Shown here one piece after another: positions 41,262-63,655 of a DNA stretch of 64,000 bases (its first letter is position 1; the number at the start of each line of letters is the position of its first letter). The translations under genes and the position numbers were made by a program. Source of the stretch: Lentinus brumalis (lineage: Eukaryota; Basidiomycota; Agaricomycetes; Polyporales; Polyporaceae). The notes under the pieces are model-generated. The model did not search any database. It saw only the letters and a list, made by a program, of their open reading frames with translations, and was not told the origin of the DNA. The stretch covers positions 184,853 through 248,852 of the forward strand of contig MARA01000053.1 in the NCBI GenBank assembly GCA_001792895.1, written 5' to 3'.

Positions 41262-42382
41262 TAGGTATTTCTGTAACCCCCTTAGGGTTAGGGGGAGGTA
41301 AGGGTGAGCATTATTGGCCGAATGTACGTTGCGAGCGGTCGAGTTGCTGGAGAGCATAAATTGCGGCGGAGGAGCGGTTGGTGGCAGGGAGGTGGGTGTG
41401 ATTGGTATAAGTAGCGAACGAGCGGGCAACCGCTCAGAACTGTGTAGAAGGTAAACGGTTGCAGAATGTATGGTGAGCAGTCGGCCATCCACGGCACGTT
41501 ACAAGCGGCCGACCACCTGCTGTCGTGAGCGGTTGACCGCTCGTACCTCATCGTGAGCGGACGACCGCTCGTACCTCGTCGTGAGCGGACGACCGCTCGT
41601 ACCTCGTCGTGAGCGGACGACCGCTCGTACCTCGTCGTGAGCGGCCGACCGCCTGCTGTGAGCGGACGACCGCTCGTACCGTACCGTGAGCGGACGATCG
41701 CCCGTACTGTACCTTGAGTGGTCGACCGTACTGTACCGTGAGCGGTCGACCGCTCGTACCTTGTCGTGAGTGGTCGACCGTACCGTACCGTGAGCGGTTG
41801 ACCGCTCGTACCGTACCGTGCGCGGCTGACCGCCTGCTACGAGCGGACGACCGCTCGTACCGTACCGTGAGCGGCCGACCGCCCGTTATGTACCTTCAGT
41901 GGCCGACCGTACTGTACCGTGAGCGGTCGACCGCTCGTACCTTGTCGTGAGTGGTCGACCGTACCGTACCGTGAGCGGTCGACCGCTCGTACCGTACCGT
42001 GAGCGGCTGCCCGCTTGTACCGTACCCCTTGTCGTGAGCATTCGACTGCTCGTACACTGCTATGAGCGGTCGACCGCTCGTACCGTACCGTGAGCGGTCG
42101 ACAGCTCGTACCGTGCCATATGAGCGGTTGGCAGCTCGTGCCTCGCTGTGAGCGGTCGGCCGCTCGCTGCGATGTTCTAGGCGAGAACTGCCTGCTGCCG
42201 TGCACTGTCCAACTGCTGATCATGGAAAACCAAGGGACATCTGGTGAATGCAGGCCGCGAGCGGTCGACCGCTCACCACGGGTGCGTCTGCCGGACATAG
42301 CGTTGGACGTGCCGGGATGCAGGCTAGTACACCGGACCTGCAACTCCAAGCGTACAATCCAAGCGGCCGACCGCTCTCGAAT
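41257..42382. repeat. 1.1-kb tandem duplication, copy 1, packed with palindromes
   Basis: Begins ATTGATAGGTATTTCTGTAA with CCCCCTTAGGGTTAGGGGG and repeats from 42383 almost base for base. It is filled with the 16-bp palindrome and decayed forms of it (GAGCGGACGACCGCTC, GAGCGGTCGACCGCTC, GAGTGGTCGACCG). These are separated by short words such as GTACCGTACCGT and GTACCTCGTCGT. Non-coding. Confidence 0.9.
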
Positions 42383-43703
42383 ATTGATAGGTATTTCTGT
42401 AACCCCCTTAGGGTTAGGGGGAGGTAAGGGTGAGCATTATTGGGCCGAATGTACGTTGCGAGCGGTCGAGTTGCTGGAGAGCATAAATTGCGGCGGAGGA
42501 GCGGTTGGTGGCAGGGAGGTGGGTGTGATTGGTATAAGTAGCGAACGAGCGGGCAACCGCTCAGAACTGTGTAGAAGGTAAACGGTTGCAGAATGTATGG
42601 TGAGCAGTCGGCCATCCACGGCACGTTACAAGCGGCCGACCACCTGCTGTCGTGAGCGGTTGACCGCTCGTACCTCATCGTGAGCGGACGACCGCTCGTA
42701 CCTCGTCGTGAGCGGACGACCGCTCGTACCTCGTCGTGAGCGGACGACCGCTCGTACCTCGTCGTGAGCGGCCGACCGCCTGCTGTGAGCGGACGACCGC
42801 TCGTACCGTACCGTGAGCGGACGATCGCCCGTACTGTACCTTGAGTGGTCGACCGTACCGTACCGTGAGCGGTTGACCGCTCGTACCGTACCGTGCGCGG
42901 CTGACCGCCTGCTACGAGCGGACGACCGCTCGTACCGTACCGTGAGCGGCCGACCGCCCGTTATGTACCTTCAGTGGCCGACCGTACTGTACCGTGAGCG
43001 GTCGACCGCTCGTACCTTGTCGTGAGTGGTCGACCGTACCGTACCGTGAGCGGTCGACCGCTCGTACCGTACCGTGAGCGGCTGCCCGCTTGTACCGTAC
43101 CCCTTGTCGTGAGCATTCGACTGCTCGTACACTGCTATGAGCGGTCGACCGCTCGTACCGTACCGTGAGCGGTCGACAGCTCGTACCGTGCCATATGAGC
43201 GGTTGGCAGCTCGTGCCTCGCTGTGAGCGGTCGGCCGCTCGCTGCGATGTTCTAGGCGAGAACTGCCTGCTGCCGTGCACTGTCCAACTGCTGATCATGG
43301 AAAACGAAGGGACATCTGGTGAATGCATCATATTGTATCGTGAACAATATGAGCGGTCGACCGCTCGCACACCTCGCTGTGAGCGGTCGACCGCTCGCAC
43401 ACCTCGCTGTGAGCGGTCGACCGCTCGTACCCTGCTGTCCGCCCTCGCCCGCTCGTACCTCGCTGTGAGCGGTCGGCCGCTCGCTGCGATGTTCTAGGCG
43501 AGAACTGCCTGCTGCCATGCACTGTCCAACTGCTGATCATGGAAAACCAAGGGACATCTGGTGAATGCAGGCCGCGAGCGGTCGACCGCTCACCACGGGT
43601 GCGTCTGCCGGACATAGCGTTGGACGTGCCGGGATGCAGGCTAGTACACCGGACCTGCAACTCCAAGCGTACAATCCAAGCGGCCGACCGCTCTCGAATA
43701 TGT
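42383..43703. repeat. 1.1-kb tandem duplication, copy 2
   Basis: Near-identical to 41257-42382 at both ends, offset 1,126 bp at the left end. It gains about 190 bp net because the block from the GTTCTAGGCGAGAACTGC word to GGACATCTGGTGAATGCA occurs twice. Its right end is shared with the left arm of the large inverted repeat. Confidence 0.88.
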
Positions 43704-44055
43704 GTTGGTGCGGTATCTCCTGTCGCTCGCGACGCGCCGCCGAGCATGTTCTGAGCACGCCCTGATACAAGACTGATGTGTTCAACGCTTAGTGTATCGG
43801 CACGCCGCCGGACACGTCTTGAGTGCAAATACCATACTTATGCATCCCGTGCTACGTTCAGCGACCCCCATTACCCTGCCGTGAGCGGCCGACCGCTCGT
43901 GGGTGCTCACGGTATTGTATATCAGCCCTCCTGGCTTAGTTGGTAGACCACTTAGAAGCTGTGCCGCTGCACGTCGTGGGCGCAGGTTCGATTCCTGCAG
44001 GGCTGTATTCGTCTTGGGTATCTCGGTTTTTGTCGCCTGGCGACGCGATGAGGAA
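43214..44055. repeat. Left arm of ~1.85-kb inverted repeat
   Basis: Reverse complement of 44225-45066. Every paired feature I checked mirrors around 44140 without indels: palindromes, the GTTCTAGGCGAGAACTGC word and the tRNA-like sequence. The spacer is 44056-44224. Confidence 0.92.
43923..44005 (+). other. tRNA-like sequence, left arm
   Basis: 83 bases with a perfect B-box GGTTCGATTCC, an A-box TGGCTTAGTTGG, a 5-bp T stem (GCAGG/CCTGC) and a 7-bp acceptor stem (CAGCCCT/AGGGCTG). Two extra bases precede the A-box, and I cannot draw a convincing anticodon arm. It is more likely a tRNA-derived element or pseudogene than a working tRNA. Confidence 0.55.
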
Positions 44056-44119
44056 CGGTGGCCCCTACTGGCATCGAGCGGTGGAATCGAACCAGAAAAA
44101 AGTGTTTAGGCGACCATAA

Positions 44120-44194
44120 GAGCCCCACAGGAATCGAACCTGCGACCGCTCGATGCGTTCGCAGAGCGGCTTACCCACTAAGCCAGTAGGGCCC
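44120..44194 (-). other. tRNA-like sequence in the spacer
   Basis: 75 bases with B-box GGTTCGATTCC, A-box TGGCTTAGTGGG, a full D stem (GGCT/AGCC) and an acceptor stem GGGCCCT/GGGGCTC that closes with G-U pairs. The region where the anticodon arm should be folds instead as CGCTC...GAGCG with a 12-base loop. No isotype assigned. Confidence 0.5.
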
Positions 44195-44224
44195 ACAACG
44201 GCATCAGTAGAACCCCGCGTCACC

Positions 44225-45066
44225 CCACTCATCGCGTCGCCAGGCCACAAAAAAGCTGATTCCCAAGCCGAATACAGCCCTGCAGGAATCGAACCTGCGA
44301 CCACGACGTGCAGCGGCACAGCTTCTAAGTGGTCTACCAACTAAGCCAGGAGGGCTGGTATACAATACCGTGAGCACCCACGAGCGGTCGGCCGCTCACG
44401 GCAGGGTAATGGGGGTCGCTGAACGTAGCACGGGATGCATAAGTATGGTATTTGCACTCAAGACGTGTCCGGCGGCGTGCCGATACACTAAGCGTTGAAC
44501 ACATCAGTCTTGTATCAGGGCGTGCTCAGAACATGCTCGGCGGCGCGTCGCGAGCGACAGGAGATACCGCACCAACACATATTCGAGAGCGGTCGGCCGC
44601 TTGGATTGTACGCTTGGAGTTGCAGGTCCGGTGTACTAGCCTGCATCCCGGCACGTCCAACGCTATGTCCGGCAGACGCACCCGTGGTGAGCGGTCGACC
44701 GCTCGCGGCCTGCATTCACCAGATGTCCCTTGGTTTTCCATGATCAGCAGTTGGACAGTGCATGGCAGCAGGCAGTTCTCGCCTAGAACATCGCAGCGAG
44801 CGGCCGACCGCTCACAGCGAGGTACGAGCGGGCGAGGGCGGACAGCAGGGTACGAGCGGTCGACCGCTCACAGCGAGGTGTGCGAGCGGTCGACCGCTCA
44901 CAGCGAGGTGTGCGAGCGGTCGACCGCTCATATTGTTCACGATACAATATGATGCATTCACCAGATGTCCCTTCGTTTTCCATGATCAGCAGTTGGACAG
45001 TGCACGGCAGCAGGCAGTTCTCGCCTAGAACATCGCAGCGAGCGGCCTACCGCTCACAGCGAGGTA
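44225..45066. repeat. Right arm of ~1.85-kb inverted repeat
   Basis: Mirror copy of 43214-44055. Immediately to its right (45067-45165) a shorter part of the arm is repeated again. Confidence 0.92.
44275..44357 (-). other. tRNA-like sequence, right arm
   Basis: Exact mirror of the tRNA-like sequence at 43923-44005, same boxes and stems. Confidence 0.55.
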
Positions 45067-45166
45067 CGAGCGGGCGAGGGCGGACAGTAGGGTACGAGCG
45101 GTCGACCGCTCACAGCGAGGTGTGCGAGCGGTCGACCGCTCATATTGTTCACGATACAATATAAGC

Positions 45167-45775
45167 ACTCGAGTATAGGGTCACCCAGGATATCCCTCGG
45201 CACATGTAAGCGCCCAACAGGAGCCGCCGCTGGGAGCCGTCAGCTGCGTGGTTCAATTATGGTACCTTACTTCGGGTGTAGCATTACATACAAGAGTTAT
45301 CTGAGTCAGAGGCAGACATGCACACAGTCGCACTCTGTGCTCCTGGGCAGTGATGCAACAACATAGAGAGACCGTGTCAGAAGTTTCCCATATGTGTAGG
45401 GATAATGGGCCCCTAAGCACCTATCTTCTGGCTGGTCCTGGGACCTCGGAGCGCCACTCCTCAGAGATATGAACACATAAGGTACACCCCAGTCTATATA
45501 TTATGTGTTCTATCACCCGGAGACACCTTGGCTCCACGTGTATGGTGGAGCTTGTTACATCACAGGCTGATATACTGTTGAGACTGTCCACACCGGGACA
45601 AAGTCCAGGTGAAGTTGGGAGTTACGGACTTACAAAGTCCGGAAGGATGTGTGCGGAGGAAGAAGGATTCAGCAAAGCTATGGATCAACACCTTGAGGAT
45701 GCGTGGGTGTCTTCAATGTAAGACGGACAAGAGATCCGGAATTCATAACAGGAGCAAGCAACAAGTAAGAAGAAA
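45167..45775. other. Non-coding stretch, no supported gene
   Basis: Less GC-rich than the surroundings, without palindromes or convincing frames. Confidence 0.4.
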
Positions 45776-45783
45776 AGCAAGAG

Positions 45784-46548
45784 TAGTGATGTGCAACGCC
45801 CGGTCTTGAGCCATCAGGCTCCCCAAGCCGGCCGTATTCAGGCCGAGCCAAGCTGAGCTTTCGAGGCGGCCTGGGGAGCCTGACGGCTCGGCACACGACC
45901 ACAATGAGCTCGAGCTGGGCTCTCGAGCTTGGGCTCAATGACGCTGGCATAGGGCGAGCAATATTGATCACTGAACTAATGATACTGCGATTTATGTGGG
46001 TTTTAAACATACGTTAGCACTGCAGTACTCACATTTTCTTCATCAGGAAGACTCATAAGTAGTCTTGTCACTCTTGTGTATCAATTACTCGGGACTGAGA
46101 GCATGCAGTGCACGCTAGGTCAAAGGTCAGAGGGCAGGGCAAAGCAGATGGCGACGAGAAGTGTCACTGGACGTGTTCTCTCATCGTTCTTCATGCTCTT
46201 GCAGCGCAGGAGGCCGGGGCAAGAACCGTCAGCCTGAGGTCGACGACGGATGCGTCATTGGACACGTCTTCTTGCTCTTCCTGGTGTCAAGCAGCGCGGG
46301 AGGGCAGGTGCAGAGGCGGAGTGCAACGAAACACGTTGTTGGACACGTCTCATTATGGGTCTTTGCACTCTGGCAGTGCAGAGGTGCGGGCAGGAGGTAA
46401 GTAGCACCCACCACCTGCAGGCTCTGGCTCAGGCCGAGCTGAGCTCGAGCCGTCTTCAAGAGCCCGGCCTGCAGTTCGAGCAGGCCGTAGCTCTCCAGGC
46501 CGAGCCGTAGCCGCGGCTTTGCAGCCGAGCCGGGCTCGCACATCACTA
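45784..46548. mobile_element. Nonautonomous hAT-type transposon, second family
   Basis: A 765-bp element. Its ends begin TAGTGATGTGC at 45784 and, reverse-complemented, TAGTGATGTGC ending at 46548. It is flanked by the identical 8-bp repeat AGCAAGAG at 45776-45783 and 46549-46556. The inner parts of both ends hold GCCGAGC/GGCTCGG words in inverted order, a common feature of hAT subterminal regions. There is no transposase. The ends differ from those of the element at 6135, so a different transposase family is implied. Confidence 0.92.
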
Positions 46549-46556
46549 AGCAAGAG

Positions 46557-47059
46557 ACAAGACCAAGTGGAAAGAAAGTCAAGCCAGAGGTGCGAGGTTA
46601 AGCAGAAGTCAGAGTGAGAGGTTGGAGGTCAGGAATCAGAAGTCTGGTTGGAAAGATCAGACTATGAGAGGAGAGCAAACAGAACAGATCGATCTCACAG
46701 TTGTAACAGGGAGCGTAACGAGATATTAGAACTGAGAACTAAGTGTCGCTACAAGGAGGCTTATATGGCAAAGTCCAAAAGTCCGAAGAGCAGTAGCCAA
46801 GACAGAAGTACAGGAGGTCAGGAACCAGAGTCAGGTGGAAACTTATGATCAGCCAATGCAAAGTATTCCGCCGCTTGTGGGCCTCTTGTGTGCGATAGTG
46901 AGTGGTCTGCCGCTCACGGGCCTCTTTCTGCTGTTGTCCGCTCGTAATCTCCTGTCGATAGTCACGCACAGTGGGCGCTTACAGTGGAGATAGGCATAAA
47001 TACACCTGTGACCGCAAACTGTGTGTGACTATCGACAGGAGGTTACGAGCGGACAACAG
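46557..47059. other. Non-coding stretch, no supported gene
   Basis: No credible frame. Contains a short inverted pair (CTATCGACAGGAG/CTCCTGTCGATAG) around 46950 and 47035, just left of the 46-bp array. Confidence 0.45.
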
Positions 47060-47690
47060 CAGAAAGATGCCCGCGAGCGGCCGACCGCTCGCTATCGAAC
47101 ATAAGCAGAAAGATGCCCGCGAGCGGCCGACCGCTCGCTATCGAACATACGCAGCAAGATGCCCGCGAGCGGCCGACCGCTCGCTATCGAACATACGCAG
47201 AAAGATGCCCGCGAGCGGCCGACCGCTCGCTATCGAACATACGCAGAAAGATGCCCGCGAGCGGCCAACCGCTCGCTATCGAACATACGCAGCAAGATGC
47301 CCGCGAGCGGCCGACCGCTCGCTATCGAACATACGCAGAAAGATGCCCGCGAGCGGCCGACCGCTCGCTATCGAACATACGCAGAAAGAGGCCCGCGAGC
47401 GGGCGACCGCTCGCTATCGAACATACGCAGAAAGAGGCCCGCGAGCGGGCGACCGCTCGCTATCGAACATACGCAGAAAGAGGCCCGCGAGCGGGCGACC
47501 GCTCGCTATCGAACATACGCAGAAAGAGGCCTGCGGGCGGCGACCGCTTGCTATCGAACATACCAGAAATATGCCCGAGCGGGCGACCGCTCGCTATCGA
47601 ACATATGCAGAAAGATGCCCGCGAGCGGGCGACCGCTCGCTATCGAACATACGCAGAAAGAGGCCTGCGGGCGGCCGACCGTTCACTATT
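47060..47690. repeat. 46-bp tandem array carrying the palindrome
   Basis: About 14 units built on GATGCCCGCGAGCGGCCGAC with CGCTCGCTATCGAACATACG, one palindrome per unit. The left units spell GAGCGGCCGACCGCTC and the right units GAGCGGGCGACCGCTC; the last units are decayed. Because 46 is not a multiple of three, all three plus-strand frames stay open, giving spurious frames of 200-257 codons. Confidence 0.92.
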
Positions 47691-48142: not shown

Positions 48143-48168
48143 CGACTCTCTCTCTCTCTCTCTCCCCG
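48143..48168. repeat. CT microsatellite before the ParB-like gene
   Basis: A run of about ten CT repeats followed by CCCC, ending about 70 bases before the ATG at 48236. Pyrimidine tracts here are usual near fungal transcription starts. Confidence 0.7.
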
Positions 48169-48235
48169 CGATCACCCTCTGAGCGACCGCACTCCCCTAC
48201 TACAGACACTCCTCCACTCCTCTCTTACTGGCACG

Positions 48236-51200
48236 ATGAGTACTGCAACAAAGGCAAGCAAGGCTGGCAAGAAGGCGAAGGCGACGAAGACCCAGGCCGC
48301 GGCGGGGGTTGGTAAAACGAAGGATGGGGCGGCGGGCGACGCGCCGCGAGCATCTGGAGATATATCTCCTGCCGGTCGCGATGAGGTGAGTACTGTATGC
48401 AGCATCGCGTGTGAGTGCGGATGAGCTGAGGGATGGGATTGGACAGCTCGCGGCTGCGCCTCCCCTTGAGCGGATGGCGCTGATGGCGGAGAAGCAGAGC
48501 AAGGAGTTGGCTTTGAAGAAGGAGATGGCAGCGGCGCGACTTGGGTACGCCACTGTTAACCTCCTCAACCCCGGGGTCCAGCTGTCGTTCGGTCAATACA
48601 ACAACCGAGCTTTGAACAAGAAGGCCGTCTCCGACCTTGTGCACAGTTTCCGCGGCATGGGCATCCAGCACGAGGACCACCCGATGCCGGTTGCTGTCAA
48701 GGTGGACTGGGTGGACCCCGGTTGTCTTGTTCAGAATGCCGACGACAACGACTTGAAGGCCGTGCAGTGGACGTCGAAGGTCCAAGGCGCCGAGGTCACC
48801 GTTCTCGGCGGGCAGCACCGACATGCGGCCGTGCAGGGCTTCAAGAAGCAGCTTGAAGTTGAGGCGGCGAAGCTGAAGACGGCGCTCTCGAAGAAGCAGA
48901 AGAAGCTGAACGACATCGGCGACGGCGGCGACGTCACCAGGAAGGGCAAGGCGGCCGTGAAGAAGGAGGCGGAGGGCGCGCTGCGATCGGAGCTCGCGGA
49001 CATGGCGGACAAGCTCGCGAAGATCAAGAGCCTCCTCGGCGAAATAGGGACGTGGACGGTGGAGCTGTATGACATTGGTGAGTGTTGCATGTATGAGATT
49101 GTTTTATATCGAGCGGTCGACCGCTCGACCGGTGCTGTTGTAGTGCGAGCGGTCGACCGCTCGAGAGGCGTGGTCAGTGTGAGCGGTCGCCCGCTCGACC
49201 GAGTCCGAGCGGTCGACCGCTCGCGAGGCGTGGTCAGTGTGAGCGGTCGACCGCTCGACCGAGTTCGAGCGGTCGACCGCTCAAAAGGTGTCGCCAGCAT
49301 CGCCCGCTGCGTGTGCGATGTTGCGATTCGAGCGGTCGACCGCTCGCGAGGCTCGGTCAGTAGGAGCGGCCTCGCCAATGTGAGCGGTCGCCCGCTCGAG
49401 AGGCGTGGCGAGCGCGAGGGCGTGACCGCTTTCTCCGACCATACACTGCGGCTGTTTTAGATTGTACTTCACGAGATCACACGACTGATGATGCGCTATG
49501 TTATAGATAAGCTGCAGGAGCCAACCCTCCGCCATCTCTCCATGAACAAGATCGATCCCCAGCTCTCGGAGACGATGGTAGAGCGAACATGGCGGTGGGT
49601 GTACGAGCTGAAGGCCGCGGCAGCGCAGCTTGCCAAGACGCACAATGTCCCGGTGGAGACACTCGTCCCCGGCAATGGGTGGTGGAGTTCGCGACTCCTG
49701 GAGGATGTGATGGGCGACCCGAAAACGCGTCGGAAGTATTCCTCCTTCATGAAGCCGTTCCATAATCCGTCCACCTGGAACCTCATGTCGCTCATGAGTG
49801 TGTTCCCATACTACACGAGCGAAGCCGTGGTCAACACGAAGGCATTTGGGGACTACCTGGACGACGGCGATTACGGTGACTGGGTGCGTGCTTTTTTCTG
49901 GCTTGTGTGTATGCGGATGCGAGTGCTGACCTGCTTGTGTCAGCTTCACATGGAGATATTGCGTTCAGGGCTGGCAGCGCTGCATTTCATCGCGAGTGAC
50001 TGTGAGTGGCCGGAGGTGAACCAGCAGGGGAAGCTGGTGAATCCCCAGGCCTCTGCGCTCGGCAGCGAGGTGTATGCGTTCCAGATCGCGAGCATCCAGG
50101 AGGCCGAGGAACGGACGGCGGTGATGGAGGCGTTGCAGAATGGCCAGGAGGCGATTCTCCCTGCGGTGTCGAAGACCGCGGTGGGTGCCCGTCGGCAGGC
50201 GCAGAATAGGTACGAGGAGGTCATGGCGACGGTGCGGGCCGCACGAGTTGTGCAAGAGGTGTTCCCGAAGGAGCTCCTGGACACGATCGACGCGGCGTAC
50301 CGGTCGTGCCTCAAGGACCGGCTTGCGCACATGGCGCACAGCGACTCGCCTCTGTGGATGGACGCGCTGCGTGGCTATCAGGCCTCGATCCGGCGGTCGT
50401 GTGCGCAGTACTGGACGGCGACCCTCGACAAGCTGCGGGCGACGACTCCGGACTCGGAGTCCATTCGTGCGCTGGAGAACGCACCCCAGAAGCTGGAGTG
50501 GGTGTTCGAGCTGCAGCGGCTCGGGCTGGCCTTCGCGCTCCCGGTCCCGACGAAGACGTTCATGGACGCCCTGAAGGAGAAGTTGACCGCGGCAGACGAC
50601 GGAATCGCGACGGTGAGTGGTATTGCCTTTGTCCATCGGACTGTTCGATCGCCGAGACGCAGCGTGAGCGGCCGCCCGCTCGTTCGAAGAGGTTACGATG
50701 CGAGCGGTCGCCCGCTCATCCCAGGGATGTGCTCCGAGCGGTCGCCCGCTCGGGCCCAGAGTTACAGTGCGAGCGGTCGCCCGCTCATGCCATGGACGTG
50801 CTCCGAGCGGTCGCCCGCTCGGCCCTAGAGTTACGGTGCGAGCGGTCGCCCGCTCATGCCATGGACGTGCTCCGAGCGGTCGCCCGCTCGGCCCTAGAGT
50901 TACGGTGCGAGCGGTCGCCCGCTCATGCCATGGACGTGCTCCGAGCGGTCGCCCGCTCGGGCCCAGAGTTACAGTGCGAGCGGTCGCCCGCTCATGCCAT
51001 GGACGTGCTCCGAGCGGTCGCCCGCTCGGCCCTAGAGTTACGGTGCGAGCGGTCGCCCGCTCATGCCATGGACGTGCTCCGAGCGGTCGCCCGCTCGGGC
51101 CCAGAGTTACAGTGCGAGCGGTCGCCCGCTCATGCCATGGACGTGCTCCGAGCGGTCGCCCGCTCGGCCCTAGAGTTACGGTGCGAGCGGTCGCCCGCTC

Positions 51201-54200
51201 GTGCCAAGAGATAGGGCACGAAGGGTGAATACATACTTCGAGCGGTCGCCCGCTCGGCCGCGGAGTTACACTGTGAACAGCTGTGCTAACACCTCTCCCT
51301 GCAGCTCATGTTCATGCTCGATCCGCTCCACGGCGGCAATCCCCATAACCTCCTCGGTGACCAAATCAACGCCCTCCTGTCAGATGCGACACTTTTCCGA
51401 CAAGTCCCTGGTGTCTCAGTCTGGGTAAGTCTGATCGGATACCTTCTGCACGCTCACAGTTCATACACTGACGGCCCAACAGTGGTGGTCGTTTGTGCTC
51501 CGCGAGCACATCAAGCTTACCGACATAGGCCGCATGGTCCACGCAATGGCAACAACTGGCTCCGATGCCCTGCGTGGTACTCGGCGGTTCATCTTCGAGA
51601 AGATCGGCAAAGCTGTGTGGGGGAAGGGCGGCGTCAACGCGAAGTTGTCCCCCTTCGGCGCATTCATCGACTTCAACTCGGAGGACGATCCGTGGAAGCC
51701 GACCTGCGAGGCGTACTACAGGCGATGAAGGAGGCTCTGACCGTCATGCGGAAGGACGCAGATGCGGAGAACGGGGGGTTCACTACATCCCAGCTCGACA
51801 AGCTGCCCGCGCTCCGCATGCTCGTAACCACGTCCGCTCCCGAGTTCCGATCGTTCGTGGCGAAGAAGGCAAACAGCGCCGGAGAGGACAAGGCGTTGAA
51901 GGCTCTGAGCGTCGAGCTTCCGGTCAGGTGGGCGTACCAGCTTGAGCACGTCGCGCCATTCTACGCCTCTCTGGCGTTCAAAAGCCTGCGGGCGGCCGCA
52001 GCGAAACACCTGAGCGCGATTGGTGCATTCGAGTCCATCGGGCGCGAGGGGCGGCGCGTCAGTGTCTGGAAGTACTGGGACGCTGAGCTCGGGAAAGTGT
52101 ACGAGACCCAAGCGTCGCCGCTGCCTGTCTCGGTGGATGTGCTCGACCTCGACCTCGACACATTCCTCGAGTCCGCCACCATGCGGGCTACGTTCTCCGC
52201 GGAGATCTCGACCATCATCAAGACCGTCAGGTCGTCCAAGGTCGCGCATTTCGGCCCCACCGCTGCCAAGAAACAGGTGGTCCTCGACCGCGAGGTGCTC
52301 ACCTCTTTCGAAGACTTGATCAAGGTGAGTGCGGCGTCTGGATGTACTATGCTTTGTACTCACTGCGCATCGCGTGCTTTCAGACACTCTGGACGAACGC
52401 GAACCGGCAGGTGGCCCGCGCAAGCGGGACAACGGCTCCGTACGTCGAGCCGTCTGGACGGCGGGACCATTTCTACGAGGAGTTCCCGACTATGGCGGCG
52501 AAGGCGGACAGCTCCGCGTACCCGTCGCTCAATTATATGCAGATCCAAGCCGAGAGGACCGCGCGGTCGCGGAAGGAGATGGACCGGTACGAGGGCGCAT
52601 TGGAGAGGCTTGGTTATCCCAAGCCGCAGCTCTTGGGCCCGTACAAGGACACGGACATTCTCCCGCAAGACCTCGTCGGCTGGAACGGGCCCGTGGGGGC
52701 GATGAAGCTCGATGCGGCCAGCGTTCCTGCGCGCGCACTCGCGGCGGCGGCGCTCGCGAAGGAGGAACATCGTTCGGACGTCGAGGATGTCGAAATGGAG
52801 ATGGGCGGACCCAGCGGTGCGAGCACGGCGACTCACGGAGAGCCCACCGACCCGGCCGATCGGGAGTCTGACAACCAGAGCGCGTCCGAGGGCGCTGACA
52901 AGGACAAGGACGAGGGCGACGATGAGGAGGACGACGACGACGACGACGACGCGGACGACGACGCGGACGCGGACGACGACGGGGACGACGACGAGGACGG
53001 GGATGGGGACGAGGACGAGGGCGATGAGAACGGCGAAGACCAGCTCCAATCAAGCAGCGACGAGCCTCCTCAGGGCAATCACGGCAAGAACGACCAGTCG
53101 GCTCACGGCGAGGACCTCGACGCAGAGGGGGAGGATGCCGATGAAGAGAAGCTCTGGGCCTCTGTCGGTCCCATCACGCTCGATGAGCCCAGCGGTGAGC
53201 ACACCGACGAGGTTTCCACCGCCCCGGCAACGCAGAGTGCCTCGGAGCACGCCACGGACGAAGCGAAGTCCGTTCCCCCTGAGGAGGCTCAGCCTGACGA
53301 GGATGTCCCTCGCGAGCGGTCGCCCGCTCGCGACGCTATGGAGGTCGATGACAAGGGTCCTTCCGAGCCCGAAGACGGCCCCCCTACCTCTGAGGTCCCC
53401 GACGACAACGGCGACGATGCGGAGGACGACGCGCCGCAGCCTTTGCGACGTCTCAAGAAGCACGGGAGGACCGACCGCATGGTGGACCTCGACGACGATG
53501 CTGAGCAGGGCGTTGAGGACCTCGCTCATAGTGAGTTCTCTCATATTGTCTTACGCAAATGACAGGTGAAGACGCAGCAAATGTATTCTCGGAGCGGTCG
53601 ACCGCTCAAGAGGGGATCGCAGCCGCACGTCAGAACGAGCGGTCGACCGCTCGCATGGTCCCCTTCTGGTGGATGCAATCCCGACATTGCCTTCGAGCGG
53701 TCGACCGCTCAACATGACGTGCGGCCGCTAAGATGCTCGCGAGCGGTCGACCGCTCAGACGGTACCTGCCGCTGCGAGCTAGCGAGCGGTCGACCGCTCG
53801 CGAGCATCCTCACCCACGATCCACTACCTGTTGTCCGACAATGGATGCTCGTGAGCGGTCGACCGCTCAGACGGTATCTGCCGCTGCGAGCTAGCGAGCG
53901 GTCGACCGCTCAGACGGTATCTGCCGCTGCGAGCTAGCGAGCGGTCGTCCGCTCGCGAGCATGATCCGCTACCTTCTGTCCGACAGCTGATGCTCGCGAG
54001 CGGTCGACCGCTCGAACACATCCTCACCCACGCTCCACTACCTTCTGTCCGACATTGAAGCTCACGCAATGATTGTACAGACGTCAGTTCCATGGTGGTC
54101 ACCCCGCCGGTCTCGCACGCTCAGAAGGACGACAACCAAGGCACCGCCCGCATTACTCGCAAGCGTGCCGCGACAAGTACAGCAGAGCCCGAAGATAAGG

Positions 54201-54361
54201 CGGTCAAGGTCCTGAAGAAGGACCTCAAGACTGGCTCTGGCGCGGCCAGCTCGACGCAGCCTGTCGCGGCGAGGACTCGTCAACGTCCTCAGCCCGGCGC
54301 GAAGTCCAAGGCAAATGCCGCGATGGTTAAGGACGACGACACTGACGCGATGATCGGTTGA
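48236..54361 (+). CDS. Large protein with ParB/sulfiredoxin-like box
   Basis: About 1,427 residues. Exons: 48236-48385, 48426-49077, 49461-49883, 49944-50612, 51305-51424, 51483-52324, 52384-53530 and 54081-54361. The N-terminus is a Lys/Ala-rich tail (MSTATKASKAGKKAKATKTQ). Residues about 100-270 read RALNKKAVSDLVHSFRGMGI, then HPMPVAVKVDW and VTVLGGQHRHAAVQGFKKQL. A helix of the type 'xLxxSFxxxGI', a 'P-x-V' strand and 'GxHRxxA' are the successive boxes of ParB/Srx-fold domains. The centre is helical. After residue 1000 come a long Asp/Glu run, DVPRERSPARDAMEVDD, and a basic tail (ARITRKRAATSTAEPEDK). Nuclear or DNA-bound action is inferred. Uncertainties: the 40-bp first intron, the phase at 49077/49461, and one base missing near 51683. 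Introns 49078-49460, 50613-51304 and 53531-54080 carry palindrome arrays. Confidence 0.7.
49105..49397. repeat. Palindrome array in an intron of the ParB-like gene
   Basis: Eight copies, mostly GAGCGGTCGACCGCTC and two GAGCGGTCGCCCGCTC, with irregular 15-45 bp spacing. They fill most of the 383-bp intron 49078-49460. Confidence 0.92.
50666..51255. repeat. 69-bp tandem array of paired palindromes in an intron
   Basis: About 17 copies of GAGCGGTCGCCCGCTC separated alternately by an 18-base word (ATGCCATGGACGTGCTCC) and a 19-base word (GGCCCTAGAGTTACGGTGC or a close form). The period is therefore 69 bp. Fills the 692-bp intron 50613-51304. Confidence 0.95.
53314..53329. repeat. Single palindrome inside an exon
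   Basis: GAGCGGTCGCCCGCTC, in the last long exon of the ParB-like gene, extended to TCGCGAGCGG...CCGCTCGCGA at 53310-53333 (24 bp). It is translated in frame as RERSPAR. It is the only copy I found inside a supported exon. Confidence 0.9.
53592..54013. repeat. Palindrome array in the last intron of the ParB-like gene
   Basis: Nine copies, nearly all GAGCGGTCGACCGCTC, in the 550-bp intron 53531-54080. The linkers repeat too (AGACGGTATCTGCCGCTGCG, AGCATCCTCACCCACG). Confidence 0.92.
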
Positions 54362-54816: not shown

Positions 54817-57800
54817 ATGGACACCAACTTCGCCTTCTACGATGATCAACCGACGTTTTCTCAAGAGGAGCCGTCCTTCGAACAAGATGAACAGCCGGAA
54901 GAAGACGTAAAGTACGTGTCTGAGGGCATCTATCTATCTGGCCACTGTCCTGCTTTGCGCACTCCGTCCTCATCGTACCCCTCCCCCTCTCTCAATAGCG
55001 AACTCGACGAGCCCCTCGGCGCGGCGGCGTACACCGATGACGAGGAAGACGGGCCTCTCCGCGAGCCGTTCAACATCAGCTTCGTCCCGCCGACCATGGT
55101 GACCGAGGACAGTGTCTCGCAGGAGGAGGTCACCCGCGGCCATCTCGTCGCGGACGCTCACTTTGACGAGTTGGCGCAGAGGTATGTCGAGATGCCGACC
55201 AGAACCGTCCTCCTCTCCGATCTTGAGCGGAACTTCAACTCCCGCAACCAAGAGAGGGCTCTCTCGCTCCTGCAGCGCAAGAACCTTCTCAAGGTCGACA
55301 GCCGCTACTTGTACGCCGCCAATGATCCCAAGATCTACTGGAAGCTGAGCGAGGTGTGTACATGATGCTACCTCTGTTACCATCTCTGTGTCTCATCCCA
55401 CCCGTGCGTTCTCGCTCCCTGTGCCCTTTCTGGCGTGCAGGTGCGCTGGGACTGCGACATACGTGTCCCGAAGGAGCTCGGCTTCGGTGCTGTGTTGCCG
55501 CCAGTGGACAAACCGGACTGGTCGTTCACGATGCGCTTCGACCGCAGACATTGGACGTTCAAGGGCGACCGGCGCGTCTTTGGTTTCCTGCCCGACCACC
55601 GGATGTTATACATTGGCCAGGCTCCGATGCAGGCTGATGTGTTCATCGCGCTCATGCCTGTCGACGCCTTTGCCGCAGACCCGGAGCCCGTCCGCCACAC
55701 GCGCGTGCCCACGACGATGAGTTCTGTTGTGGCACGCATTACCATCTCCATGATCACCTACATGCTCGTCAAGGCTGGCTATGGTACGGTATACATGACG
55801 GAAGAGTATCCCGACGTCGCGAAGGAGTATGAATGGCGGTTGCAAACCAACATCTTGTGAGTCCTGCCATTTCCCGCATGTGGTCTTGCCCATGTCGTTG
55901 CGACGCCCGCCCATTGCTACCGCGCACAATCAGAGGCAGGCGCGTGTCTTGACTCTCGTCGCTCACCCTAACCCTTGGGTAACCACAAGGGATATTGACG
56001 ATGAGCGGTCGCCCGCTCCGGACGATACATCCCAAATTGTGAGCGTACGACCGCTCACCGTGACCCTTGGATGATAGCAAGCGCATGGATGAGCGGTCGC
56101 CCGCTCCGGACAACGTGTCGCTCTGAGCGGTCGCCCGCTCCGGACGATGTCCTCTGAGCGTCGCCGCTCACCGTGACCCTTGGATGATAGCAAGCGCATG
56201 GATGAGCGGTCGCCCGCTCCGGACAACGTGTCGCTCTGAGCGGTCGCCCGCTCCGAACGACACATCCCACTATTGTGAGCGTACGACCGCTCACCGTGAC
56301 CCTGGGATCACAGCAAGCGCATGGATCAGTGTCGCTCTGAGCGGTCGCCCGCTCCAGACGACATATCACCATGAGCGTGCGACAGGTCGCCAGACGACAC
56401 CGCATAAGCGGTTGCCCGCTCCAGATGGATTGTCGAGTACTAATAGCGGCTGACCCGTGGCAGAAGATGCCTTGTGAGCGGTCGCCCGCTCCTATTCTCC
56501 CCATTCCACATTTGTTGCACGTCATGTATGCTCACTCGTTTCGTCAGCGACAATCCCATCTGGCAGTTCACTACCGAGACTCTTCGGAACCTCGACCGTG
56601 CGATCAAGGAGCATTACGACGAATGGTGGCAGGGAGCACCGGACTCGTACAGAGTCCCAGAGTTCATCGACGCTGAGCCCGTTGCCATCCTCGCCAAGTA
56701 TGGCCAAAACATCAAAATCTGTGCCCCAGCTACCTTCGAGGCCGATCGCGATACTTGGAACGACATGATCGACTTCAACAACATCCTCCGCATTCACATG
56801 GCTTATGCTGTGCATACCCAGTGCGTGTTAACACCTGCATCTCATACATATGCTCTCATATCAATTGCACCACACGCATCCTGACTGTAGGGCTATTGAG
56901 GCAAGCGGCTTCGAGCCTATCGACCCCAGCGCATCCTCGATCGCTACACACATGTATACACGACCGCCGATCCGAACACGCGCGAGCTCATCGAGGACTT
57001 GGAAAACTACGACCTCCTCGACGGTGACGGTCGCGAGATCCCCATCTTCTCCGAGGACGGACTTCCAATCCTCCGCAGAGACAGGTTTCGCGACCCGGAC
57101 ACACCTCCCTGCGGCTTGCTCCAGGATCTCAACAAGGTCCTCCCCTCTTTCAAGAGTCCTCGATCATCCCGCTTCAGGACCCTGAGCTCGACGACGGGGA
57201 GAGGGATCTCCAGGACGAGGACTTCATCGCCGACATCCTTGGGGACCCGTCTGAGCCCATGACACCCATCTTCACCTACCCCCAGTTCTTCTCCAAGAAC
57301 ATCGGTCAGTGGCAGGCGGACGGATCATCAAGCCTCTCCTGCGTCCCTTGCGCCGTCTCGCCCGCGACATAGGCGTCACTGCGGACGGGCCCCTCTGCAT
57401 TGAGGGCTTCAAGTCCCAGGCATACAACAATGTCGCCCATCACGTCCGAGACAAGGCCCGCACTCACATCGCGCAGCGCGGGCCGCTCACTGGTGCTACC
57501 GCCGGTGCTTGGGCACGCGACGCCACCACCAAAAAGACCGCTCTCGATACGTTGGGCTATGCGTCTGCGCAGCTGCCCCATGAACGCCTCGCCCGCCAGA
57601 TGCGCACCGCTGAGGACCATGCCAACAAGAACGCCCTCCGCTTTGAGAACAACTTCATCTTCCACATCGCGCGCATCAAGCCTGAGTATCGTTCTGGCGG
57701 CGGTTTCTACGAGCACGTTCTCATGAAGCTCCGCAAGATCTTCTTCAGCCCTGAGGTCAACAACGCGCTCCGTTCCTCGACGGTAATCTTCAAACCAGCG

Positions 57801-60800
57801 GTACGACGCACCACTTACTTTTGATCTGCGTGGATGATGCTGACTGCGCGCGGCATCTCACAGGTCTACCCTCGCATCCTGGAGTGGACGACGTACCCAA
57901 TCACGACCCTCCTCGACCGAGTCTGGACATTGCGTGTCAAGCCAAACCTTATGAATCCTGCTGAGAACGGCCGTCCTGATCCTGTCTACGTCGAGCTCAC
58001 CTCTGTGGCCGAGCGCTGCCTCAATTTCGCGCACACAGGCGCAGCCAAGGTCCTCAATAGAAATCTGATGTGGCACATGTGGGTCACCCGCGGCATTCTC
58101 GACAATGGCTTTCCCGCGTTCTGGCCTGGTCTGGTCATCGGCGGCGAGACAAGAACCGCACCATTTGTCGAGCTCTCCCAGTGGCCGCTGGCCCCCGTCC
58201 GGAGTATATGCCGCTCGTGGTGTCGAAGCGCTCTCAGGAGCTCACATACGGTCTCCCGCACTTCTTGGTAAGTACTCATCTTTTGATTGTGGCCTGTCTT
58301 CGGTTTGGTGGGCGGAACCTCCGTGTGTAGTGCGCAGGGCGTTCAGAAGTGCTCGCGAGCGGCCGCCCGCTCGTACGCACGTCTTGTTGATGGTCTGCTC
58401 GTCGGTCATCTCACCGGCTGCGCTCGTGCGACGTATGCTTTCGAGCGGTCGCCCGCTCCCGAGACTCGATCTCTGCCATGCAACCTCCGTCCTTCATGCG
58501 CAGAGCCCTCAGAAGTGCTCGCGAGCGGCCGCCCGCTCGTACGCACGTCTTGTTGATGGTCTGCTCGTCGGTCATCTCACCGGCTGCGCTCGTGCGACGT
58601 ATGCTTTCGAGCGGTCGCCCGCTCCCGAGACTCGATCTCTGCCATGCAACCTCCGTGCATCGTGCGCAGAGCCCTCAGAGGTGCTCGCGAGCGGTCGCCC
58701 GCTCGTACGTGCGACTTGTTGATGGTCTGCTCGTCGGTCATCTCACCGGCTGCGCTCGTGCGACGTATGCTTTCGAGCGGTCGCCCGCTCCCGAGACTCG
58801 ATCTCTGCCATGCAACCTCCGTGCATCGTGCGCAGAGCCCTCAGAGGTGCTCGCGAGCGGTCGCCCGCTCGTACGTGCGACTTGTTGATGGTCTGCCCGT
58901 CGGTCATCTCACCGGCTGCGCTCGTGCGACGTATGCTTTCGAGCGGTCGCCCGCTCCCGAGACTCGATCTCTGCCATGCAACCTCCGCGCATCGTGCGCA
59001 GACCCCTCAGAAGTGCTCCGCGAGCGGCCGCCCGCTCGTACGCACGTCTTGTTGATGGTCTGCTCATATTGGACCAGACTCTTGATTCACTTCCGTGGCT
59101 ACATACCCTTCGCTGACCTCACAACGCCCTCAGATATATCTCACGGACTTCCGGCTTCGTCTGGCCAACGTCTCCCCCAAACCGCCAGGCACCTCCAGGT
59201 ATAACGCATCGATTCAGAGGCTCCTCATCACGGCCCAGATCGCCATGGACGCATACGAGGAGGATGTGCTCGCTCTCGTCAAGCGGCAGCTGTTCACAGA
59301 GATCGCCGATGCCTTGAAGGATCGCAACCATCCCGACCACGTCAGGGCTATTGAGCGCAAGAAGAACTGGGACGTGTGGCGCAAGTCTAATCATTGTCTC
59401 TCCTACGGTCCCGACCGGTCCACCCTCGAGCAAGTCATCCGCTTTTCCTCTGTCACTGTCGCAGACATTGGCCGCGGTCTGCAGAAGTCTTCCCGCGGCG
59501 AATGGTCCCTCGACCAGTTCGCAGACGAGATCATCAGTCAGACAAAGCTGCCGACGGCTCGCTCCTTCCGCGCACCCATCGACCCCGCTGGCACATTCGG
59601 CCCCGTCGCCTGCGCTTGCATTCAGCAAGCAAGGCTGATGCTCAGAGGAAGCAACGACAGGGACGTCCTGAAGGACTTCAAACGCGCCCTCGTTGCCGTC
59701 ATGCAGACCCGCCACGTCAATTTCATCCCGGACACCCTGCCTAACCCCAACGGCACAGGCGCCCCTCTGCGTACTCCCTCTATTCACGCATGGACCACCC
59801 TCGGCGCGACAAGCGCAACTCCCTCCATCGCCGTAAACCGTCTCCCGACCCAGGAGGCCCGCGCGGAGGCTGCCCTGGCCCAGTTCACCCGTCTCGTCGT
59901 CGACGCGGACCCTCGTGCTTCCTGGGACACCGTCTCCATCAAGATCTCCGAGTTCCCCAAGTACTTGGACCGCACCGTCCTTCCCCAGTCTTGGAACTGG
60001 GCCTCCGCTAAAGCAACCGGGATGATTCTCGAGACGTACGAGTGGGCGGACGAACGCATGCGCACCAATCTCCAGGATCCCCTGTGCTCGCTCGCCCTCA
60101 CTCTCGCATTTCTCCTCTCAAAGGTCCTCCCCAGAGTCGCTTGGGAAACCGAGAATTGCCCGGCCGGTCTCGACCGAGTCTCGACTGCCAATCCTCAGGG
60201 CTCCGTGACCTATTTCCGCATGGTCCCCTGGACACAGCGCGTTTACACGAACGACCACAAGGGCAGTAAATCCGAGGACCAATTCTTCACTATCGCCGCC
60301 ATCACTTTCCTCGCTTGGATGGACCCCAAGTCGCCTCTGCGCACCCACCTCCAAAACGGCGGGTCCATCGCGCAGTGGAACAAGAAACACGGTATGCCCG
60401 CATGTTGCCCAGCTCTACTGTTCTTGCCTCGTCTCACTCCGCTAATCCCGTTCAGGCCCCAAGTACCTTCACACCGTAAACCTCATCCGTCTCGGGATCG
60501 CCTACGGCAAGGGCGCTGCCATGTTCAAGTCACCTCGCCTCCACAGGGACTATCACATCTTTGATGTACCCGAGTTGCACGCGTGGAGCCGCGAGGTCCG
60601 AACAACGCTGCTCACAAAGCCCGACGGCCCGCACACAATCGTCACGAAGATCTTCGGGCACGACGTCGCGGAGATGTTGGCCGGCAGAGGTCACTTCGGA
60701 TCGCAGATGCAACGCGCCGCTAACACGGAGTACTCGCATCGTCTGCAAGCCGGTCCCTCATCATCAACCCGTCCCCGCGCCGGTAGTTGGAGCTCTGACG

Positions 60801-60904
60801 ATGACTCTCAACCCCTGCCTCTCAACGCCGCCGTTATGTGTAGACTCATGTGTCCCGCTCCGTTTTACAATGATAATCCACGCACTGCAATCCCCTCGCG
60901 TTGA
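54817..60904 (+). CDS. Very large unrecognised protein, eight exons
   Basis: About 1,390 residues, function unknown. Exons: 54817-54911, 54999-55353, 55441-55856, 56548-56820, 56891-57800, 57864-58267, 59134-60391 and 60456-60904. It starts MDTNFAFYDDQPTFSQEEPS with an acidic leader. Conserved-looking blocks are SLLQRKNLLKVDSRYLYAAN, KLSEVRWDCDIRVPKELGFG, WTFKGDRRVFGFLPDHRMLY, TSVAERCLNFAHTGAAKVLN and LTYGLPHFLIYLTDFRLRLA. KYLHTVNLIRLGIAYGKGAA and FGHDVAEMLAGRGHFGSQMQ follow. The composition is that of a folded globular protein, not a repeat translation. Introns 55857-56547 and 58268-59133 are swollen by palindrome arrays. One added base is needed near 56933, 57160, 57315 and 58195, two of them at runs of C. 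Same strand and similar intron features as the ParB-like gene upstream suggest they belong together. Confidence 0.65.
56002..56492. repeat. Palindrome array in an intron, partly decayed
   Basis: About seven GAGCGGTCGCCCGCTC plus decayed relatives (GAGCGTACGACCGCTC twice, GAGCGTCGCCGCTC). Linkers repeat CCGTGACCCTTGGATGATAG with CAAGCGCATGGA. Lies in the 691-bp intron 55857-56547. Confidence 0.9.
58351..59041. repeat. 166-bp tandem array with two palindromes per unit
   Basis: Starts recur at about 58351, 58517, 58683, 58849 and 59015, a period of 166 bp. Each unit has GAGCGG(C/T)CGCCCGCTC and, some 85 bases later, GAGCGGTCGCCCGCTC. It fills the 866-bp intron 58268-59133. Confidence 0.95.
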
Positions 60905-61463
60905 ACCATTCGTGCGTATGAGCGGTCGGCCGCTCAGACCCTCAGTTGCGTGTATTGCTGTGAGAATAATCCAACAGATCCAGTGCAATCCGGCGTGTTG
61001 CACATGCGCACAGGTTCCCTGTTCAAAGCGGTCGTACCAGCGCAACAGTGTCATCTCAGCGGTCGACCGCTCAGAATATACTTCTTACGTTAATGACAAC
61101 CCGTCCACCACCAAATTCACTTACAGTGTCCTGGGAATGTCATGTCTGAGCGGTCGGCCGCTCGGAACGCCATTCATTTGTCGTCGCTGCCTGCAGGAGA
61201 TGTATCTCCGCCCGCCCGCGATGCACGTATAACACCGGTAGTAACAGTCGCCACTGTCCCGCTCGACCGCCTGATACTGACATGCCCTCATTCCATCTCC
61301 CGCCCACCGCCGCCTCTCACACAGTGATGCGTCACCCGTCACCGCGAGTGTCATCTCACGTGGTTTTGTTGAGCGCAACCAAGTCTCACGCAGAGCGCCC
61401 GCCTATGTTCGCCTTCTCTCTTCCCTCCACCCTGTCATCCCTCTATCGCCTCCCCACACCGCA
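60905..61463. promoter_or_regulatory. Intergenic region with three palindromes
   Basis: Contains GAGCGGTCGGCCGCTC at about 60919 and 61147 and AGCGGTCGACCGCTC at about 61058. The last 150 bases before the ATG at 61464 are C/T-rich promoter-like sequence. Confidence 0.6.
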
Positions 61464-62761
61464 ATGAGCTTCCCCTCGCCCCGCCACCACGCCGGCCATC
61501 ACGAGGTCCCTGCAGACATCGCAGGTGCTCCCCGAGCTGACAAGATCGCGACGGCGGTGCAACAGGACACCGTCGAACGTCGGTACCCTCCCCTATCTCT
61601 TCCTCATGTCGCAACTAATCAACCCTTTACCTTCAGATCCGGCAGGTTTCGTGCTGCGCCCGCGCATGATGTCCGTAACTACACCTGCCAGTCTCACCGC
61701 TCTATGTCCCTTACATTTTATTGCAGCGTCCGGTGTACCCATCACGTTCACAGCCGCAGCACTCATCATGCGCTCGCCTTCTTGGGCGAAATAGTCGCTG
61801 TCAAGCTCAGCAATACTCTCCACGAGGTACGCTGCCTCCACAGTTACGCCTCCGGTGCCGCTTGTGCTCACCCTGTTCACAACTGCAGCCAATCGCCGAG
61901 CTCTCACTCTTGTACACCCGCCAGGACCTCGACACTGAGGTCCTCGCGCCCTCCACCGTCGACAACGGCACAGCCGTCGCAATCCACGGCCAGTACCAGG
62001 TCGTCCGCAGCTCCAGCAAGATCCATGTGTACGCAGCCCAGATCACTGAGATCGTACAGGTCGTCCGCCTCGATCTTGCCCTTTTCGGCATGCCCTACAT
62101 TGCCACTGGCACGCTGTGGCTCCGGGAGGATGTCTCTGTCGATGTTGACCACCACATCTTCAGCGTCAAGCATGTAAGTTCCCGCACGCTTCTCCTCGCA
62201 GCTCGCCTCACTCTCTGACTCCTTGTCCTTCCAGGAACAAATGGTCAGCATATGTCGTCGCTCCTGTCGCCGTCAAAACCTCCTCGCCCTCGAGGAGGAC
62301 GTGCTCAGGTTCTGCGAGCTTTGCCGGAAGTGGTACCACATCGGCTGCGTGCCGCGTCTGCAGACCGTTGCCCACTACCGCACGCAGAACAACCCGTCTC
62401 TGCCCGCCTGGGTCACCTGGACACCCCCGCCAACGCAGAGCGTACTACGGGGCCCGATTTGGCGCCCCTTGTCACGCTGCCGATCCAACGCAACTACCCC
62501 GACCTCTTTCCTGCTCGCTCCGTCTCATTTGAGATGTTGCTCGGCCAAGTCCGGCAGGACATCCTCAACCCCCACTGGACATATCCAACCACCGCCGATG
62601 ACCAGGTCATATACATCCAAGCCCTCGTCCGACGGTTTACGGTTCCCGAGGAGCCGCTCGCTCGGTGGCACGCGCTCGACGACTTCATTAAGCTCATGAA
62701 GGTTCCTTTGACAGACCGATATCTCTACCGATGTCCCCGTAGCTCCGAGCATTTCATGTAG
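61464..62761 (+). CDS. Protein with possible BAH domain and PHD-like zinc motif
   Basis: The start MSFPSPRHHAGHHEVPADIA is taken from the ATG after a pyrimidine tract. Parts of the exon structure are clear (61889-62173 and 62235-62761); the region 61583-61888 holds two or three small exons I cannot fix. The middle reads FLGEIVAVKLSNTLHE, then LYTRQDLDTEVL, and GTLWLREDVSVDVDHHIFSV. That order of strands recalls a BAH domain (inference). Next comes FCELCRKWYHIGCV, a C-x2-C-x4-H-x2-C zinc knuckle of PHD type, preceded by CRRSC. The C-terminus ends LTDRYLYRCPRSSEHFM. Single bases seem missing near 61780 and at a C run near 62424. If correct, it is a chromatin-reader-like protein. Confidence 0.6.
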
Positions 62762-62827
62762 TTTTGTTTGTAATATATGTTCGACAAGCATGTAGAAGGC
62801 AGTATAATTCGTGATTGCGTCGTCTCG

Positions 62828-63655
62828 CAGCGGTCGACCGCTCTGAACGCATTCCGACGCGAATACAGAACGTTTGTCTCTGAGCGGACGGCCGCTCAGA
62901 CCAACTACTCGTCTCGCAGCGGTCGCCCGCTCCGAACAGATTCGGACGCGAATACACGGACGTTTGTCTCTGAGCGGACGGCCGCTCAGACCTACTACTC
63001 GTCTCGCAGCGGTCGCCCGCTCCGAACAGATTCGGACGCGAATACACGGACGTTTGTCTCTGAGCGGACGGCCGCTCAGACCTACTACTCGTCTCGCAGC
63101 GGTCGCCCGCTCCGAACAGATTCGGACGCGAATACACGGACGTTTGTCTCTGAGCGGACGGCCGCTCAGACCTACTACTCGTCTCGCAGCGGTCGCCCGC
63201 TCCGAACAGATTCGGACGCGAATACACGGACGTTTGTCTCTGAGCGGACGGCCGCTCAGACCTACTACTCGTCTCGCAGCGGTCGCCCGCTCCGAACAGA
63301 TTCGGACGCGAATACACGGACGTTTGTCTCTGAGCGGACGGCCGCTCAGACCTACTACTCGTCTCGCAGCGGTCGCCCGCTCGAACAGATTCGGACGCGA
63401 ATACACGGACGTTTGTCTCTGAGCGGACGGCCGCTCAGACCTCCTACTCGTCTCGCAGCGGTCGCCCGCTCTTAACAGAATCGGACGCGAATACACAGAC
63501 GTTTGTCTGTGAGCGGACGGCCGCTCAGATCTCCTACTCGTCTCGCAGCGGTCGCCCGCTCTTAACAGACTCGGACGCGAATACACAAAGATTCGCCTCT
63601 AGCTGAACGCCTCCCCATGTGGTTACGACCCGTCTCCCAGCGGCCGCCCGCTCTC
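62828..63655. repeat. 90-bp tandem array with two different palindromes per unit
   Basis: At least seven regular units from 62880 to 63570. Each carries GAGCGGACGGCCGCTC and AGCGGTCGCCCGCTC, linked by AGACCTACTACTCGTCTCGC and CGAACAGATTCGGACGCGAA. The outermost units are decayed. It sits between two converging genes; the 90-bp period keeps several frames open. Confidence 0.95.

Follow-up and report, generated by a model that had tools for sequence, protein, structure and literature searches.

What does a 16-bp palindrome do that fills the right third of a 64,000-nucleotide stretch of the Lentinus brumalis genome? This stretch, the window of our analysis (GCA_001792895.1, MARA01000053.1, positions 184,853 to 248,852), is the last 64 kb of a contig that we call C86, and we examined it together with the whole genome (53.4 Mb, 136 contigs). 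We find that copies of the palindrome are subtelomeric and unevenly distributed, and that its 14 fixed bases change less than the spacers around them. The copies belong to a large gene-bearing element near chromosome ends. On balance, we think that they are probably dispersed recognition sites of this element, bound by a protein that acts as a symmetric dimer; more tentatively, they may organize the chromatin of the element.

A palindrome family at chromosome ends

The palindrome, GAGCGGNCGNCCGCTC, has 106 exact matches in the window, every one within 41,555-63,526. A first-pass annotation of the sequence had estimated more than one hundred copies in the right third and none left of 41 kb, and both statements are borne out by these counts. 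Dinucleotide shuffles (n = 100) gave a mean of 0.02 matches and a maximum of 1. No exact copy lies left of 41,555 in the window, and with three mismatches allowed just two matches appear left of 40 kb. When positions 7 and 10 are masked, the palindrome forms the commonest 16-mer class of the region (106 members; the next class has 23). On the + strand, these two positions read TA and TC (32 each), AA (10), CA and AG (8 each), TG (6), GA (5), CC (4) and TT (1). The flanks extend the consensus to Y...R, with a pyrimidine before the palindrome in 66 of 67 distinct contexts and a purine after it in 60 of 67. Gaps shorter than 150 bp between adjacent copies take 31 different values, from 26 to 137, and therefore helical phasing need not be invoked.

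Across the genome, GAGCGGNCGNCCGCTC has 1,314 sites, compared with 2 for the reversed pattern. The arms GAGCGG and CCGCTC around any four central bases occur at 1,459 sites, versus 13 for the control, and CG stands at the center of 1,314 of the 1,459. For the position test we used the rarer C/G-type variants, which number 71 in the genome. Among the 50 of these that were listed, tandem arrays are confined to chromosome ends, and each of the 31 sites that fall on contigs known to exceed 240 kb has a contig end no more than 37 kb away. A uniform density across the genome, which the annotation had named as speaking against its own reading, is thus not what we see.

The genes of the element are placed in the same way. 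The genome has the gene A exon 12 times in full, at 99% identity, and once as a fragment, and copies on contigs longer than 240 kb lie at most 39 kb from an end; the contigs that hold copies of genes B, C, and H overlap with this set. Contig C79, the only one among the contigs read with telomere repeats at its end, starts with CCCTAA repeats and carries the A-B-C-D block between 10 and 44 kb. The blocks of C86 and C79 are near-identical, with 13 substitutions in 12,807 non-array bases.

Constraint on the palindrome inside arrays

Substitution is rarer at the 14 fixed bases than in the spacers of the same arrays. Deviations from the unit consensus in eight arrays amount to 19 of 1,386 at fixed positions, 337 of 4,489 in spacers, and 15 of 197 at positions 7 and 10. 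Column counts and shift tests were carried out on six arrays, with the badly aligning 43-bp array and the 60-bp array dropped. In these six, 16 of 154 fixed columns are variable, against 164 of 535 spacer columns (Fisher test, p = 1.3e-7), while positions 7 and 10 vary in 7 of 22 columns, at the rate of the spacer (p = 1.0). Circular shifts of the motif mask gave p = 5e-5 for all six arrays, 0.001 for the four window arrays and 0.003 for the two arrays on contig C21. Most pairs of arrays share the palindrome but have unrelated spacers; this comparison was run unmasked, and a masked version missed a known homologous pair (poor power).

The constraint is not even along the motif. Of the arm columns, 9 of 132 are variable, compared with 7 of 22 for the central CG. 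This weakens the annotation's three fixed CpGs: the central CG is part of the motif genome-wide, in the proportion given above, yet it decays like ordinary sequence within arrays. Among one-mismatch copies on C21, 28 of 39 have C>T at position 8 or G>A at position 9, that is, a change in the central CpG. The window has 7 of 28 one-mismatch copies at the central CpG and 11 of 28 with G>C at position 1; nine of these 11 are in the 90-bp array and the remaining two at 61057 and 63638. GAGTGG, described in the first pass as a frequent form of decayed copies, was overstated, as it occurs 11 times in the palindrome region and 11 times left of it, and 5 of the region's 11 occurrences belong to one array family.

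Palindromes in introns and spacers

By the gene models of this analysis, five introns of genes A and B hold 50 of the 106 window copies; another 55 are in spacers, and the one exonic copy is at 53314-53329 (Table 1). Introns that bear palindromes are 429-866 bp long, compared with 58-87 bp for six other introns measured. Intron 2 of gene A contains palindromes in all 12 gene copies, with 8-10 in each of the 11 that have the complete intron; the twelfth copy, on C107, has no intron 2 acceptor within 1.5 kb. In another assembly, a protein record at 99% identity (P0003) continues through intron 2, and its sequence includes peptides encoded by palindromes, in fewer units. Relatives at about 60% identity have no palindrome in their short intron read-throughs.

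A fixed inner terminus and stacked copies

The element begins with a fixed inner terminus with a telomere-like core, followed by non-coding arrays and then by genes A-B-C-D. More than 21 kb of it lie in the window, facing the contig end. The terminus, TTGATAGGTATTTCTGTAACCCCCTTAGGGTTAGGGGG, cuts the segment of gene H at 41,257, and the same terminus is found again at 42,383. Its 20-bp outer part has 41 genomic sites, all of them exact in a search that allowed up to two mismatches. The adjoining core, TTAGGGTTAGGG, has 34 exact sites and one with a single mismatch (35 at ≤1 mismatch), and is therefore more variable than the outer part. On contigs known to exceed 240 kb there are 13 terminus sites, and every one of them is directed towards whichever contig end is closer. 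The terminus stands 5.37-6.31 kb upstream of gene A in all 11 testable copies (C79, C54, C84, C86, C50, C59, C67, C75, C38, C124, and C107), the twelfth being 1.3 kb from a contig end.

The boundary is sharp. Seven different sequences precede the terminus in the 10 sites read, and reading frames are severed there: gene H in the window, and a reverse transcriptase (RT) together with another gene on C21. From their sequence, the termini look as stacked additions at chromosome ends would, and exchange between ends may be another route to the same arrangement. Five other genomic copies of the gene-H segment begin within 5 bases of the same place as the copy in the window. To its left, from 27,000, where the search started, to about 34,910, the DNA is single-copy except for short weak matches.

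Read on the other strand, the terminus core (41279-41298 and 42405-42424) can be drawn as a CCCCCU/AGGGGG stem with the telomere complement AACCCUA in the loop; its z of -0.3 is no better than that of shuffles.

Proposed recognition sites and their alternatives

The first-pass annotation had proposed a protein-binding or methylation site. Of these two, binding is supported by the constraint on the fixed bases, by the absence of compensatory changes and by the spacing: the GAGCGG stem occurs with a spacing of 4 only, with none at 2, 3, 5 or 6. A CGG inverted repeat at fixed spacing, as in Zn2Cys6-type CGG-N4-CCG sites, is present in the motif. The methylation half of the proposal found no support in the features examined, as described below.

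In the reading that we favor, the element is located close to chromosome ends and oriented towards the contig end, which is telomeric where visible. A sequence-specific protein would bind the half-site GAGCGGNC as a symmetric dimer, and would recognize duplex DNA rather than a hairpin. Bound arrays may then organize the chromatin of the element, through coordinated silencing or expression, tethering or end protection, and the protein might be the element's own or a host subtelomere factor; we are least certain of these two steps. Arrays gain and lose units, and sites persist in whichever spacer becomes amplified. We regard as unlikely a more ambitious version, in which a giant, non-standard telomere-seeking element would use a hairpin terminus as a telomere template, carry chromatin-type genes of its own, and employ the 1,314 palindromes as an oriP- or parS-like system bound by its own protein.

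Several points weigh against the recognition-site reading. No binding protein for the palindrome was found, and the ParB and Zn2Cys6 candidates are without support. Gene A appeared ParB-like by eye (GGQHRHAA), yet none of eight family members matches a ParB family at E ≤10, in a search whose filters drop most matches above 0.1, and its structure model is poor (pLDDT, the predicted local distance difference test score, of 52). No Zn2Cys6 cluster turned up in a pattern scan of the window, 40 kb of C79, and C21. With respect to constraint, single arrays reach p < 0.05 in the shift test in four of six cases (one at 0.04999), and the array w46 gives p = 0.38. The arrays are also not all independent: the two C21 arrays are related copies, and there is kinship among w41.5, w43.3, and the C21 arrays, and perhaps between w49 and w50. 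Taken alone, CpG columns are variable in 13 of 74 cases in the motif and 20 of 80 in the spacer (p = 0.33). Between C86 and C79, the motif differs at 16 of 1024 positions and the array spacer at 64 of 2571, which is not clearly slower; this comparison is uninformative on constraint, as there is too little divergence outside arrays and units are misaligned inside them. Finally, the mobility of the element is something that we infer from its copies and junctions, and the constraint could reflect the choice of amplified units instead of selection.

This last point leads to the alternative that survives best, which we consider rather unlikely. Here the palindrome would be an amplification hot spot, with the DNA broken there by replication or a nuclease and amplification restricted to units whose palindrome is intact; it would persist without being of use to cell or element. 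The palindrome is indeed present in most tandem arrays of the element's non-coding DNA, the spacers differ between arrays, and intron 2 varies in length between near-identical copies (428-515 bp in 11 of 12, by a script whose values are one short of the true length). Two copies, however, lie outside arrays (60920 and 61148), and 14 fixed bases with free positions 7 and 10 fit recognition better than foldback alone. Other 6-bp stems with a loop of 4 number 13, against about 6 expected by a rough formula, and five of these 13 are one word.

A CpG methylation or heterochromatin-nucleation site in subtelomeric silencing would be consistent with the three CpGs, the subtelomeric placement, the central-CpG transitions that are the usual decay on C21, and the weak PHD-like match of gene C. 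We judge it improbable from the sequence at hand. CpG is not depleted, with observed/expected ratios of 0.97-1.30 in bins from 40 kb onwards and 0.89-1.25 in those before it; the central CpG is conserved no better than the spacer in arrays, and neither, by the column counts above, are the CpG columns of the motif.

It is quite improbable that the palindromes are an ordinary, functionless subtelomeric satellite spread through exchange between chromosome ends. Such exchange would be expected to leave near-identical blocks at different ends, as in C86 and C79, and it accounts for the identity of copies but not for 14 bases that resist change relative to their own spacers.

An RNA hairpin working in introns or transcripts, with a 6-bp stem and an NCGN tetraloop, has a favorable predicted fold (about -9 kcal/mol, with z from -3.0 to -4.2 across three spellings) and would suit the 50 intronic copies, but is very improbable given 0 compensatory stem changes versus 20 one-sided breaks, 55 of 106 copies in spacers and an Rfam search that yielded sub-threshold look-alikes only. 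The constraint, the freedom of positions 7 and 10, and the lack of stem compensation favor a sequence-specific protein over an RNA hairpin or a neutral satellite.

Comparison with known systems

Site arrays in which one viral or plasmid element carries a short palindrome several times include the family of repeats of Epstein-Barr virus, papillomavirus E2 sites, and parS. The element resembles these arrays in carrying several copies of one short palindrome, and differs from them in its intronic placement and in that no corresponding binding protein was found.

Telomere-linked elements are a kind already known. Terminons, or telomere-associated endonuclease-deficient Penelope-like elements, are very large, lie near telomeres, have telomeric repeats at their junctions, and stack truncated copies endward (PMC6431247). 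The element described here is similarly large and telomere-near, with telomere-like junctions and a truncated copy stacked towards the end. Its terminus adjoins the TTAGGGTTAGGG core and faces the nearer contig end, as described above. A putatively Penelope-like RT occurs on C21, C107, C61, C94, and C50 of this genome. No RT is present among the Pfam-scanned open reading frames of the element's 21.6 kb in the window, its outer end lying beyond the window. In contrast to terminons, the element has intron-rich genes A-C that point towards the contig end. It also differs in that no Rfam family, the hammerhead included, reached the gathering threshold when the window, C21, and 40 kb of C79 were searched, a search that could miss a degenerate ribozyme; none was found at E up to 5 in the 571 bp at the end of the C21 RT unit. 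The word stem "palindrom" is absent from the main text of the terminon paper (PMC6431247).

Among fungi, the FoTeR and MoTeR reports describe chromosome-end elements of Fusarium and Magnaporthe, with tandem repeats and helicase genes nearby (FoTeR) and telomere tracts between stacked copies (MoTeR) (PMC12857005, PMC8381367). Ours is likewise a fungal chromosome-end element; unlike FoTeRs, which are non-LTR (long terminal repeat) retrotransposons, the block here carries other genes (PMC12857005). In Agaricus bisporus, subtelomeric RecQ helicase families are repeated at chromosome ends (PMC7473861). The helicase-like gene H is similarly repeated at mushroom chromosome ends, but it is SNF2/helicase-like, by mostly weak Pfam matches, and its segment is without exact palindromes.

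In IMG/VR, considered for a viral origin, at least 120 stretches matched the palindrome; among the 80 listed, 79 have one site and one has two, with no arrays. Patterns of gene A matched 35 stretches there, none of which was confirmed. The three commonest spellings of the palindrome were not found in a corpus of 5.39 million open papers, and the titles and abstract openings among the matches listed hold no description of this element.

The locus brings together fungal chromosome-end elements, the growth of introns, and repeated sites under conservation, which are usually studied apart, and the 16-bp palindrome offers a direct probe for a protein that may mark these chromosome ends.

Genes of the element and its neighborhood

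Features of the window are collected in Table 1.

Table 1. Palindrome arrays, termini, and genes in the window.
Feature	Coordinates	Strand	Remarks
Subtelomeric segment with gene H	34910..41256	+	starts at CCTTAGGGTTA junction; no exact palindromes
Gene H, SNF2/helicase-like	coding ~36495-41260	+	Helicase_C E 1.1e-6; mostly weak Pfam matches; frame break ~39740
Inner terminus of truncated element copy (TTGATAGGTATTTCTGTAAC, then TTAGGGTTAGGG core)	41257..41298	+	gene H frame ends inside; stop codon read directly
Terminal non-coding arrays	41555..45141		34 exact copies; 0.9-kb inverted repeat 43136-44052 / 44228-45144
Inner terminus of element copy bearing genes A-D	42383..42424	+	same terminus as at 41257
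46-bp tandem array upstream of gene A	47059..47689		11 exact palindromes
Gene A	48236..54361	+	no known domain; single frame break at 51692 (~51.69 kb)
Gene A intron 2 (429 bp)	49078..49506	+	8 palindromes; splice agrees with L. brumalis protein P0002
Gene A intron 4 (692 bp)	50613..51304	+	17 palindromes; KDZ transposon interrupts it in C79
Gene A intron 7 (550 bp)	53531..54080	+	9 palindromes
Gene B	54817..60902	+	no Pfam match in pieces scanned; frame breaks 56935, 57150, 57305
Gene B intron (691 bp)	55857..56547	+	7 palindromes
Gene B intron (866 bp), 166-bp array	58268..59133	+	9 palindromes
Gene B-C spacer	60920..61163		two palindromes
Gene C	61464..62760	+	weak PHD-finger match, E 0.0088, below cut-off; frame break ~62430
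90-bp tandem array, gene C-D spacer	62820..63586		8 exact palindromes
Gene D, end only	63755..64000	-	resembles gene C C-terminus by eye; runs off contig end

Exon 2 of gene A matches a Lentinus brumalis protein at 96%. Genes C and D are convergent, and on other contigs relatives of gene C lie on the opposite strand at 29-30% identity. The 40 bp around the frame break of gene A are identical in C79, whereas those around the three breaks of gene B differ between C86 and C79, so some breaks may be assembly errors.

Two RNA look-alikes were noted. Sequences resembling tRNAs lie in and between the arms of the 0.9-kb inverted repeat (43925-44355), all below Rfam gathering, and a guanidine-II riboswitch look-alike, also below gathering, was taken as chance.

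No KDZ transposase matched among the window open reading frames scanned with Pfam. C79 carries a KDZ transposon (PF18758, E 6.4e-33); its intron 4 array contains another copy, which shares the reading frames and is flanked on both sides by the eight bases GCTCGCAC. Within positions 1-40000 of C79, the telomere repeats that open the contig truncate one KDZ transposon, and arrays of a repeat of about 93 bp with long open frames are found at both KDZ ends (23412-24115 and 33972-35535).

The RT on C21 has a 603-aa open frame and 296 relatives, some named from Armillaria, Trametes, and Agaricus; its match to Pfam RVT_1 (E 0.00099) is below the cut-off. TTAGGG junctions occur on C21 at 4432, 15512, and 23668, and from these the RT is putatively assigned to the Penelope-like family. 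The same contig contains a tandem unit of about 8.16 kb, which combines the RT unit with stacked units of terminus plus array that start with TTAGGG motifs.

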